The notes: a model not told the origin generated them from the letters alone. Counted from the stretch's first letter, positions 1 to 4,200 are shown. The stretch is 11,086 nt of DNA from a bacterium (GCA_020061125.1 JAGUYV010000336.1:1-11086), one strand, 5' to 3'. Translations and numbers: made by a program.

Positions 1-535
1 ACATGAATGAGAACTGCCTGCGGAGACTGAAACAACACCACTTGTAAGACCCACAACATCAACCGGTGTTGTTCTATCTGTCCATGTTCCATCGCCAAGT
101 CGGCCACTAGCGTTGCTCCCCCAGCATTTAACTCCGCCATTCGAGGTTAGCGCGCAAGTATGGGTCGATCCCGCAGAAACAGCGACAACTCCGCTTGCGA
201 GACCCACAACATCAACTGGTGTTGTTTTGTCAATTGCTGTCCCATCACCGAGAACACCATAAGCAGTGGCTGAATTTTCCCCCCAGCATTTAACTCCGCC
301 ATTCGAAGTTAGCGCGCAAGTGTGGGTCGTCCCCGCAGAAACAGCGATAACTCCGCTTGTGAGACTCACAACATTAACCGGTGCCCACCTATCTGTTTTT
401 GTTCCATCGCCGAGAGCGCCCCAGATATTAGCCCCCCAGCATTTAGCTCCTCCGCTTGATGTTATTGCACATGTATGAAACGCCCCCGCTGAAATGCGTT
501 GATGCTGTATCGAATTCTCTGAAGAACACAACGAT
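1..535 (-). repeat. Tandem RCC1-coding direct repeats
   Basis: Near-identical DNA units begin at plus-strand positions 119, 281 and 434, each with the core CCCCAGCATTTA or a close variant, giving periods of 162 and 153 bases (54 and 51 codons). Segments 119-220 and 281-382 differ at only about nine of 102 bases; the unit from 434 is more diverged, and a further unit is cut by the window start. They encode repeats with the pattern SAG-x3-H-[TS]-C-A, then KCWG, then LGDGT. Such similarity points to recent duplication or gene conversion within the RCC1 array, and it is a place where assemblies may collapse copies. Confidence 0.8.
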
Positions 536-2157
536 GAACAACCATCATTTGATGTTGTATTCCCATCGTCGCATTGCTCACCGGATTCAACAATATTGTT
601 ACCACATTGACTAACGGATCCGTCGGGAATGCATGTAAAACTGCCGCCACAAACCTTGCCAGTACCGCAGTGGCTGTTGGATGTGCATTCGACACAACTA
701 CCGCTGCCCCCAATTGCAGGAAGACAATAAGGAGTAGGCGTTCCGCAGATATGATATAAATCCCCTTTTGTTCCACATGAATCATACCAGTATAGATTGT
801 TATCATAGCAGTTTACTGTTGCATTCAGTGTACAGATACTTTGGCATGAATGGTCAACACAGAACGCACCTCCTGAACATTCTTCGTTAGTAGAGCATTC
901 CAGCAACTGTATGCTTTTAGAGGTAATGCCATTATAATAGATTTTTAGATATTGCTGATATTTACTTTCGATATGCCCGTAAGCCGTTGACAATGTATCC
1001 TTGTCAAGCATATCTGCAAATATTCTGTCTGCAAATCTCAGCCCATAACTCTGCATAATATTGAAACCGAGAAACGCTCCTGCACCGGCGTTTAAAAATG
1101 CATTCGCCATTCTTTCATTGTATCCGTTGAGACAGGCGCCGCTGTATACAATCGAATCGCTGCTGAAAGAGTTCGCCCCATAGTAATAAGTTATGAATGT
1201 ATTGCTTATCACCCAAAAATCTTTTTTTAAACCTAATATCCCATAGCCTACAGATAACTTTGCAATTCTCTTGTTCTTCAGATCATCTTCTAAATCAGCT
1301 GGTATAGGTCCGTTATCCGCAGGGATCCCTGTCATAAAACCAATATTTCCTGATTGTCCCGCAATTCCGTGTCCAAGCATAACAATAATTGAATAATTCC
1401 TCAGATTGTTTTTCCAGAAATTGAAGTCTGCGGCGGCATCATCCTTAACATCTACTGTAAAACCAACCGACTCTAAATTAGACCGCATATTCGACACATA
1501 AGGCCCCTGTTTGATAAGCATTACAGAGTCACCCGCAAGTGAGTTGATTATGAGTGCCTTTTTGTTTGAGATTGTCTTAAGGGCACTTCTTTGATTCACA
1601 TCACTGAAATCATTGCCAACAACGCGTGCGACTGTGATAATTTGCTCTTCTGGTTCTGGATAGTTTGAATCATATATGTAATAATGTGATTGTCCGCCTT
1701 CATATTCAACTGTAAAGACATAGTCATCATAATAGGCATTTTCTACAGATTGTTGTTTGCTTAATGAATCTTTTAACGCACTTAAAGCAGCTTCACTCAC
1801 TGTAGCCCCGTTGTAAAGGACTTCATCCACAATCGAAGATATTGAAGCATCATTTTGCGCATATTCCTCAACCGTTTGTGCAGCGGAACAGCTAGGATTC
1901 GTCATGCTGATTGACGCTCTCGCAATTATCAAAAGATCATTTGACAATATCTGACCGTCGGGCGCTCCAGATATGACCACATCGGCACGCGCAATCTGAT
2001 TGTCATCCAACAAATAAGTGCCAATGCTGGCACGCGCAATCATCAGCACATCATTGCTAAGGATCTGACCATCACCATTCACATCTCCGCAGAGGGCAAA
2101 GGCAGTAGAAGCACGGCAGACGATCAATAACAGAAAACATATCCAGATATGCTTCAT
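1..2157 (-). CDS. Secreted dockerin / caspase-fold peptidase-like / DUF4215 / RCC1-repeat protein (3' end outside window)
   Basis: The reading frame is open for all 719 codons from ATG 2157 to base 1, so the C-terminus is missing. An AGGAG ribosome site lies 7 nt before the ATG. Residues 1-22 form a signal peptide, with likely cleavage after AFA. A dockerin-like pair follows: loop 1 at 25-36 keeps D25, N27, D29 and D36, while loop 2 (about 59-74) keeps DGQILSND but is altered upstream. Residues about 195-385 resemble a clan CD (caspase/gingipain/CHAT) fold: a hydrophobic strand ending in LGHG (H263) and a second ending in SGAC (C342) give a candidate His-Cys dyad. Cys-rich segments follow at 421-515, then a DUF4215-type repeat at 518-544 (CGNN, QCDDGN, DGC). 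RCC1-type repeats of 51-54 residues start near 556 and continue past the edge. Expected location is extracellular or on the cell surface. The domain order is seen directly; protease activity and docking to the cohesin-like neighbour are inferred. The H-to-C spacing (79) is longer than in caspases, so an inactive or divergent enzyme is possible. Confidence 0.85.
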
Positions 2158-2195
2158 TTTGACTCTCCTGAATAAGGTCTTCATGATATATTAAC

Positions 2196-2230
2196 AAAGG
2201 GGTGCCACCTAATCCGGTGACACCCCTTTT
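2196..2230 (-). terminator. Rho-independent terminator after the cohesin lipoprotein gene
   Basis: A 14-bp stem with one mismatch pairs 2196-2209 with 2216-2229 around a 6-base loop. It lies 22 bases beyond the stop codon of the 2252-3610 gene. Read on the minus strand the hairpin is followed by TTTGTTAAT, an acceptable U-rich tail. The dockerin gene starts only 38 bases further on and I see no clear promoter in between, so the hairpin probably attenuates transcription rather than always ending it. On the plus strand it would also be followed by TTTT. Confidence 0.75.
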
Positions 2231-2251
2231 GTCCTTGTTTCGCCTTCCTTT

Positions 2252-3610
2252 TTATTGAATCGTCACATACGCATCTTTGAATGTGATGCCAGTCTGTGTA
2301 ACCAGGTTCAGGTTGTAATCCGTAAAGTTGGTGTTGGCCTGGGCCTGATCCCACTGAACCGCAAGCTGTCCGGTTGCGCCTTGCGCTGCGCTTAATGTCA
2401 GCGTGGCCAGCGTCTGGCCGCTTGTCATGGCCGATGCGGTGGTAAACGAAAGTTTGTACTGTCCCGCTGTCGCCGTGGTCTCTGCTTGTGAAGTTACATT
2501 GGAACCCAGCGTGCGCGAGCTGTATGTGAGTTTTGTGGAATCCCAAGTCACGGTTATGACACCAGCGCCAAGCCCGGCCGCCGGTGGATTGGCCATGCTG
2601 ATTACCAGATCCACGGTTCCACCTGCCGACGCACTTGCTCCCACAATATCAACACAGAAACCAGTGACGCCGGAGCATGAAGGTTCCGCAGCGGCTATGC
2701 TGACTGTAATTGCCGTGGCATTAGACATTACCGTGCCTACCTGTGCTGTGATGTTCGTCGAACCGTTTGCAACTGCTGTTGCTGTGCCTGAAGCGCCCGT
2801 GGCATTGACTGTGGCAACGCTTGTGTTGCTCGATGTCCATGTCATGCTGCTCGGGCAAGTGGTAGACGCACTGACAAGGTAAGTGCAGGATGCGGTTATC
2901 GCTGTTGTGCCACCTGATGATGAGATCGTTGAAGCCGTTGGAACGAGGGTTATTGCAGTGACGGAATCCGCAGTCAGTGTGATATTGACCGTAGTGGTTG
3001 CTCCCGCAGTCACCGTGGTAGTTGTCGCATAATCCAAATATCCCGATTTTCCCGCCGTAATTGTATGGCTGCCCGCCGCAACGGTCGTATAAGAAAGCGA
3101 TGCGCCGGTTATGCTTGCAGGCACTGCGCCATCAAGCGTGAATGTATCTACGCTCGTGGGTGAAACGAAATTGACAACCAGACCGCCGGACGCCGTCGGT
3201 GTCAATACCAGAGAAGTTTGCCCCTCTGCTTGAGCGACCGTGGTCTGCCCGGCAACTACCGTGACCGTAAAGGTTTGATCGCCGTATCCGGTTTTGGTGA
3301 TAGTGCATGTGTATTGTCCGGCGGGGACATTGGAAAGCGTATATGCGCCTTCAGAATTTGTTGCCCCGGAAACTCCACCGCATGTTACCGTTGCGGCTAC
3401 AAGGGGTAGATATCCTGATGCTGTTGCTTCGGCGCTTCTTCCGCTTATTCTTGTATACAAGTACCCTGAAACGCTGCCAGTGGTTGATGTCTGAAGATTA
3501 GCGTTGGACAAACCGCCACTTTTCCGGCCCCCGCATCCATTAAACAACATCGCAAAGGCGAGCAAGGGGATGGCAATGAATGTTGATAACAGCATTGTTC
3601 TCTTAAGCAT
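2252..3610 (-). CDS. Cohesin-domain lipoprotein with carboxypeptidase-regulatory-like, PEGA-like and Big2-like modules
   Basis: Translation gives 452 residues from ATG 3610, chosen because AAGGAGG lies 6 nt upstream; a frame extension to an upstream TTG at 3646 has no such site. Residues 1-25 are a signal sequence with C26 in the context LFNGC, an imperfect lipobox, so lipid anchoring is likely but not certain. Modules in order: a carboxypeptidase-regulatory-like beta domain at about 45-125 (TNSEGAYTLSNVPAG, then TKTGY), a PEGA-like segment at about 143-212 (VAAGSHTITAGKSGY), a Big2-like Ig fold at about 216-305 (MTWTSSNTSVATV, then GSTNITAQVG) and a cohesin-like domain at about 316-452 (GGTVDLVISMANPP, then VTWDSTKLTY). 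Cohesins bind dockerins; the next gene downstream starts with a dockerin pair, so this protein is a plausible surface anchor for it. The composition, rich in T, S, A and G, is typical of extracellular adhesive proteins. The module calls rest on pattern recognition only. Confidence 0.85.
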   Translation of the reverse strand: MLKRTMLLSTFIAIPLLAFAMLFNGCGGRKSGGLSNANLQTSTTGSVSGYLYTRISGRSAEATASGYLPLVAATVTCGGVSGATNSEGAYTLSNVPAGQYTCTITKTGYGDQTFTVTVVAGQTTVAQAEGQTSLVLTPTASGGLVVNFVSPTSVDTFTLDGAVPASITGASLSYTTVAAGSHTITAGKSGYLDYATTTTVTAGATTTVNITLTADSVTAITLVPTASTISSSGGTTAITASCTYLVSASTTCPSSMTWTSSNTSVATVNATGASGTATAVANGSTNITAQVGTVMSNATAITVSIAAAEPSCSGVTGFCVDIVGASASAGGTVDLVISMANPPAAGLGAGVITVTWDSTKLTYSSRTLGSNVTSQAETTATAGQYKLSFTTASAMTSGQTLATLTLSAAQGATGQLAVQWDQAQANTNFTDYNLNLVTQTGITFKDAYVTIQ

Positions 3611-3672
3611 TTTCTTCCTCCTTGAGGGGTTTCGTTTTCTTTTCAAATGTAATCCTTAAGAAATATGAAACA

Positions 3673-4200
3673 TCAGTTAACATCATATGATGCAAAAAGC
3701 CCATACCCGCCAAATCGGATGCCGTCTTTTTTGATTGCGGCCCCTGAAGTAAAGCGGAGGGAAAGACGATTCATCATTTGATACTTGCCAATAAAAATTG
3801 GGACGGTGCGAGTGATTTTTGTTGAAGTATTTCCGATGTCCATCTGATGCAACTGCAGTCCAAAACCCACTTTCCCTCTTTCCCATTTTCCGAAATCAGT
3901 CATGTAGCCAATTTGCAGCATGTAGTTATCGACATCGCCAATACCAAGGATGTTCGCATTTACATTGGTTCGTGAAAAATATGCGGCGCCAAAAAGCGTA
4001 TCGGCCCCTTTTGTAGCCTCCAGTCCGAACCCGACGATCCCGCCACCATCAAGATCGCCCTCATTCGGAAGGAAATAGCCAGCGTCCGCATGCCACTGTA
4101 ATCTTTGTGACACATTTTGCGCGGTCCCCGGCCTTGCAAATAGCAACAAAAAAATTGCCACAAGAATTGAAACATTCAACTTTTGTGTTGTTGACAGCAT
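3673..4200 (-). CDS. Small outer-membrane beta-barrel-like protein
   Basis: This 175-residue protein starts at ATG 4200, with AGGAGG 8 nt upstream. Residues 1-27 form a signal peptide (hydrophobic run ILVAIFLLLF, cleavage after GTA). The mature part of about 148 residues is rich in Gly, Tyr, Phe and alternating polar/apolar stretches such as GVGFGLQL-like and RFGGYGLFASYDV segments, as in 8-stranded outer-membrane barrels. No enzymatic motif is visible and it does not end in the usual terminal Phe. The stop is 62 nt before the cohesin gene with no terminator between, so the two are probably co-transcribed. It could be a partner in displaying or exporting the cohesin/dockerin proteins, but an unrelated small porin-like or OmpW/OmpA-barrel-like protein is equally possible. 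Family assignment is uncertain. Confidence 0.75.
   Translation of the reverse strand: MLSTTQKLNVSILVAIFLLLFARPGTAQNVSQRLQWHADAGYFLPNEGDLDGGGIVGFGLEATKGADTLFGAAYFSRTNVNANILGIGDVDNYMLQIGYMTDFGKWERGKVGFGLQLHQMDIGNTSTKITRTVPIFIGKYQMMNRLSLRFTSGAAIKKDGIRFGGYGLFASYDVN

Follow-up and report, generated by a model that had tools for sequence, protein, structure and literature searches.

A cohesin lipoprotein and a dockerin-bearing CHAT-like protein encoded side by side: a candidate non-cellulosomal surface-docking pair

The locus and its setting

The window analyzed here is an entire contig (C118; 11,086 bp) from a 4.1-Mb, 79%-complete assembly (G000) of an uncultured Gram-negative-type bacterium that belongs to a deep-branching lineage. 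Its order is represented by seven genomes, and the next relatives share only the domain level. The minus strand carries three genes, which encode a barrel-like protein (3673-4200), a cohesin lipoprotein (2252-3610), and a dockerin protein (1-2184). A preliminary description of the locus had called the latter two genes with the correct strand and coordinates and as adjacent in the same direction. The rest of the contig is ordinary, with plus-strand genes for a methyltransferase, an Mrp-type NTPase, a PAS histidine kinase, and a double response regulator; the best named relatives of the Mrp protein are 46-57% identical and spread across many phyla. The first 4 kb have a GC content of 0.41-0.54, below the value of about 0.6 in the plus-strand part, a pattern that fits acquired surface genes. 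The features of the minus-strand region are listed below.

3673-4200, minus: small protein, secreted and probably an outer-membrane barrel; its gene is the upstream neighbor of the lipoprotein gene; no Pfam hit
2252-3610, minus: cohesin lipoprotein gene; ATG at 3610, in-frame TTG at 3646
3533-3535, minus: putative lipidated Cys (LFNG-C-GG), compared with the lipoprotein Cys in the CGGGG of related genes
3233-3406, minus: CarboxypepD_reg (prealbumin-like) domain; Pfam 45.2 bits
2972-3097, minus: PEGA domain; Pfam 45.8 bits
2714-2962, minus: Big_2 immunoglobulin-like domain; Pfam 32.3 bits
2294-2653, minus: C-terminal cohesin domain; Pfam 36.7 bits, genome search 40.5 bits
2199-2226, minus: strong hairpin (terminator- or attenuator-like) between the genes; -29 kcal/mol, z -5.6
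1-2184, minus: secreted protein with dockerin, CHAT-like domain and RCC1 repeats; 728+ aa, truncated at its C-terminus by the end of the contig
1900-2091, minus: type I dockerin, residues 32-95, two halves; Pfam Dockerin_1, PDB 1ohz_B, internal symmetry
952-1881, minus: helical lead-in and CHAT-like (clan CD, caspase-fold) domain; family alignment and hhalign
1369-1371 and 1132-1134, minus: codons of the putative dyad, His272 and Cys351; invariant HG and C
511-612, minus: Myxo-type cysteine-rich repeat (DUF4215/TIGR02232)
1-498, minus: RCC1 repeats, running past the contig end; strong Pfam matches

The lipoprotein ends in a cohesin domain

The lipoprotein is ordered as signal, Cys-Gly-Gly, CarboxypepD_reg, PEGA, Big_2, and Cohesin. 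The Pfam Cohesin match (PF00963) covers residues 332-451 of the 464-aa frame, clears the gathering score of 24.1, and spans model positions 3-130 of 139, nearly the full model. The signal sequence and C-terminal cohesin-like domain described earlier are thus borne out, and the profile search suggested as a check of that domain assigns it to cohesin. With a profile made from cohesins of other genomes, the window cohesin scored 18 bits, against about 2 to 4 bits for the Big_2 and CarboxypepD_reg/PEGA regions of the lipoprotein itself. Sequence search of the PDB returned weak matches (best E 0.013), the top three of which were cohesins or cohesin-containing entries (5nrk, 5nrm, 5lxv). A single-sequence AlphaFold model of the domain was all-beta at pLDDT 52, too poor for fold testing, and Foldseek run on this low-confidence model returned noise, with no informative fold match. 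Searching genome_contigs with the cohesin lipoprotein did not find relatives.

The N-terminus has a hydrophobic signal with a Cys at residue 26 counted from the ATG (AMLFNGCGG). The preliminary description placed this Cys in a lipobox-like context. The Cys is indeed present, and its Cys-Gly-Gly aligns with the lipoprotein Cys of related genes, but the F-N-G-C sequence, with Asn at -2, departs from the usual pattern and is not a strict lipobox; the lipoboxes of the homologues are more canonical. The cohesin protein is probably lipidated.

The neighboring protein begins with a symmetric dockerin

In the product of 1-2184, the dockerin stands immediately behind the signal sequence, in agreement with the dockerin pair previously proposed for the mature N-terminus. 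The segment alone scores 25.0 bits against Dockerin_1 (PF00404; cut-off 22.9) and 19.4 bits within the long protein, and its best PDB match is the Clostridium thermocellum Xyn10B dockerin (1ohz_B, E 1.7e-6). The first calcium loop is canonical and the second has a 4-residue insertion. The stretches that follow the two loops are nearly identical: the halves agree at 14/17 positions, with S-N at both cohesin-contact pairs. By comparison, the halves of the genome's five other dockerins are identical at 5-9/17 positions, and their contact residues are I-T, I-S, I-K, or V-A. These five are C-terminal on other, large FN3-type proteins, whereas the window dockerin is N-terminal and its helix sequence differs. 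The near-identity of its halves suggests a maintained function. Single-sequence AlphaFold prediction of the dockerin-CHAT region (pLDDT 35) was uninformative.

A CHAT-like domain in place of a glycosidase

Residues of about 200-415 had no Pfam match, and the CHAT family (PF12770) was not matched directly above cut-off. We therefore call the domain CHAT-like and not a member of CHAT. A sequence search of the PDB with this domain gave nothing of use. In profile-profile comparison, however, hhalign matched it to CHAT proteins at 96.9% (E 1.8e-10) with the His-Gly and the Cys aligned, and a cohesin profile used as a negative control gave 0%. In the family alignment, His272-Gly and Cys351 are invariant in six homologues. 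These results uphold the caspase-fold, peptidase-like domain of the preliminary description, which Pfam had missed; peptidase activity of the domain is a prediction. The RCC1 array named there is likewise present as strong Pfam matches.

A single-sequence search of 241 genomes identified the subfamily in 5, including that of the window (the others being G031, G058, G156, and G193), and a profile search added a weak, stop-interrupted match in G232. The CHAT-like domain belongs to a rare secreted subfamily. Its homologues differ in how they are held. The G058 protein carries SLH domains (91 bits), the G031 protein and the G156 paralogues begin with lipoprotein-like signals (judged by eye), and the G193 protein has a signal sequence and no recognized anchor. 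In the window protein, the dockerin occupies the place where the homologues mostly have anchors of their own. Of the new evidence, this replacement of an SLH or lipid anchor by a dockerin speaks most strongly for tethering. Regular CHAT-domain matches also occur in this genome, at six further places (C54, C300, C345, C68, C173, and C285; some perhaps fragments); they are unusual in the order, with one in G001 and none in G002-G006.

The preliminary description had termed the pair non-cellulosomal. A cellulosome is recognized by a scaffoldin with several cohesins and by glycoside hydrolases that bear dockerins; the 79%-complete genome has one cohesin above cut-off. Scanning its six dockerin proteins, two of whose frames are cut by contig ends, revealed no recognized glycosidase domain. 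These counts support the term.

Pairing and conservation of the two genes

With one above-cut-off cohesin and six dockerins in the genome, the probability of finding the cohesin 7 kb or less from a dockerin by chance is about 2%. In a set of 53 genomes from outside the order, 7 had both a cohesin and a dockerin, compared with an expected 2.9 (Fisher p 0.005). Of 46 cohesins, 16 were within 7 kb of a dockerin (expected 1.5), although 11 of these 16 close pairs came from one genome and nearly all were in one polypeptide. One cohesin-like match, L029 in G028, reads as a frame of a phosphoglycerate-mutase-like gene and was rejected as a cohesin; weak cohesin matches were for this reason handled cautiously. 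It was kept in the co-occurrence count, where its effect opposes association.

A search of related genomes for co-occurrence of the two genes, proposed earlier as a check, gave a divided answer. The exact lipoprotein/CHAT-like pair has no orthologue in the other genomes of the order; the CHAT-like domain is absent from them, and where the dockerin protein has matches there, these fall in the RCC1 or Cys-rich repeats. A similar cassette was nevertheless found in a second family of the order (G001:C20), consisting of a PEGA lipoprotein, a small secreted cohesin-like protein, and a large dockerin protein. The lipoprotein is homologous over CarboxypepD_reg/PEGA/Big_2 (E 1e-30), and the small protein scores 15.5 bits with Pfam Cohesin, below cut-off, and 29 bits with the local cohesin HMM. 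In the f3 genomes (G002, G003, and G004), related PEGA lipoproteins that end in a propeller adjoin dockerin/EF-hand ORFs, and Pfam found no cohesin at these loci. They support an association of lipoprotein and dockerin, not of cohesin in particular. At L117, L118, L119, L100, and L116, the ORFs that adjoin the PEGA/propeller lipoproteins contain dockerin/EF-hand repeats in several copies and end in a Cys-Asp-rich stretch (VCDDD), and at G004:C43 (L117:5540-11707, plus strand) three such lipoproteins lie in tandem. Loci of the L117 type are possibly a separate lipoprotein-calcium-repeat system.

The hairpin and the barrel gene

The hairpin at 2199-2226 sits in the 67-base gap between the cohesin and dockerin genes. 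It occurs at a single place among the 7 genomes of the order, which rules out a dispersed repeat element. Given so strong a hairpin in the intergenic gap, the two genes may either form separate units or belong to one attenuated operon in which the anchor exceeds the cargo.

The barrel protein had been given a possible role in display, a suggestion for which we found no support. It has no homologue in the order's other six genomes, and its sole paralogue in the window's genome lies beside a flagellin-like gene and not beside cohesin or dockerin genes. We rejected the barrel as a display partner for lack of linkage to such genes. The flagellin-like protein near the paralogue (L224:2873-4492, minus strand; G000:C189) has an apparent von Willebrand A domain (DRTGS motif) between conserved ends.

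A model for surface docking

We consider it moderately probable that the two genes encode a non-cellulosomal surface-docking pair. The sequence analysis shows what the domains are, that the genes are adjacent, that the dyad is conserved, that an anchor has been replaced, and that a second family has a similar cassette. The last two of these are independent lines of evidence that favor surface docking. Counted against it are the lack of an orthologous pair, the propeller C-termini in f3, the hairpin, the non-canonical lipobox, and the insertion in the second calcium loop. The surface tether proposed in the preliminary description is thus supported in part, by both domain calls, the anchor swap, and the G001 cassette, but not in its barrel display or in conservation of the exact pair.

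In the model, an N-terminal lipid would anchor the cohesin lipoprotein in the outer membrane and the prealbumin-like/PEGA/Ig-like stalk would keep the C-terminal cohesin away from the membrane. The secreted neighbor would exit the cell and fold its N-terminal calcium-binding dockerin, which the lipoprotein's cohesin would capture. The neighbor's CHAT-like domain, with its caspase fold and Cys-His pair, would then be retained at the cell surface together with the RCC1 propeller, with the dockerin replacing the SLH or lipid anchors of the CHAT-like homologues. Surface exposure of the pair and cohesin-dockerin binding are both predictions from sequence. More tentatively, and with some doubt on our part, the pair could be a dedicated one-to-one lock that displays a caspase-fold protease through a symmetric, possibly dual-mode dockerin, with modular, exchangeable anchoring in place of a membrane or wall anchor.

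Relation to known systems

Cellulose degradation is the best-known setting of cohesin-dockerin docking. The existence of cohesins and dockerins outside cellulosomes is established (Peer et al. 2009, cited in PMC8542988 and PMC9012536). The Cloacimonadota bacterium Ca. Stygibacter has dockerin-tagged peptidases (gingipain-like C25 and S8) and a cohesin scaffoldin (PMC8542988). Like the window's host, it is an uncultured Gram-negative-type bacterium with a secreted clan CD peptidase that bears a dockerin, in a surface complex inferred from sequence. Its scaffoldin, however, is a 3,755-aa multi-cohesin protein with CBMs and C-terminal-domain surface attachment, and its peptidase domain is C25, whereas the window has a single-cohesin lipoprotein and a CHAT-like domain with an N-terminal dockerin and RCC1 repeats.

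Syntrophic sulfate-reducing bacteria and ANME archaea have been described as having cohesin/dockerin adhesins (PMC10553843, PMC9012536). These too are non-cellulosomal cohesins and dockerins on surface proteins, adjacent in Hot-Seep1, and a PEGA surface protein is likewise conserved in Seep-SRB2. They differ in that cell-cell adhesion is proposed and expression data are available, and the passages considered here describe no CHAT-like cargo. The surface dockerins of C. thermocellum resemble the proposed pair in that a surface cohesin catches one secreted cargo protein, but they are reported to be single-mode (PMC5429695) and act at a Gram-positive surface, whereas the window dockerin is internally symmetric, as in dual-mode dockerins. 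The CHAT (caspase HetF-associated) proteins of PF12770 share the profile-profile match and the aligned His-Gly and Cys; the window domain differs from them in lacking a direct Pfam hit and in belonging to a rare secreted subfamily with SLH or lipid anchors or, in the window, a dockerin. A search for CHAT domain and dockerin together found no paper in the literature collection used. Cohesin-dockerin surface proteins outside cellulosomes are already known, dockerin-tagged peptidases among them; what would be new is the extension of such docking to a CHAT-like caspase-fold cargo on a single-cohesin lipoprotein. That one protease-like family uses SLH, lipid, or dockerin as its anchor offers a direct argument for the role of non-cellulosomal dockerins, and the pair, small and natural, would be useful for binding assays and for surface-display engineering in Gram-negative-type cells.

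Alternative explanations

Adjacency could instead reflect a shared surface-protein island, with the cohesin serving all or other dockerins, or the window dockerin docking elsewhere. Six dockerin genes face one above-cut-off cohesin, further cohesins may be missing because the assembly is 79% complete, and two further cohesin-like domains (C392 and C88) are present in the genome. The window dockerin nonetheless differs from the other five in position, helix sequence, and contact residues, and the low probability of chance adjacency also argues against this reading, which we regard as unlikely. We give still less credence to the idea that the conserved partner of the dockerin proteins is the CarboxypepD_reg/PEGA lipoprotein itself, with the dockerin/EF-hand modules acting as calcium-stabilized spacers or binding another domain. 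The propeller-ended PEGA lipoproteins of G002, G003, and G004, which adjoin dockerin/EF-hand ORFs at loci with no Pfam cohesin, speak for it, but a cohesin-like domain is found in both the window and the G001 cassettes, and the f3 dockerin ORFs look different, with multiple EF-hand-like repeats.

Finally, docking might be absent altogether, the C-terminal domain being a cohesin-like beta-sandwich that serves as a generic adhesin or stalk and the dockerin having lost binding. The weak pairwise similarity to solved cohesins and the altered second calcium loop are in line with this possibility. We judge it very improbable, given the near full-length, above-cut-off match to the Pfam model and the near-identical dockerin halves, which suggest that function has been kept. 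Surface docking of the two window proteins remains the reading that we prefer.

The two further cohesin-like domains lie in proteins encoded at C88 and C392. The protein at C88 (L040:2205-4169, minus strand) has a weak cohesin-like N-terminal region and a C-terminal dockerin, and its gene adjoins that of a second dockerin protein. At C392 (L011:3708-8042, minus strand), a cohesin-like domain lies close to the beginning of a 1,445-aa frame whose long remaining part is beta-rich, and G005:C256 encodes a cohesin-bearing protein of similar sequence.
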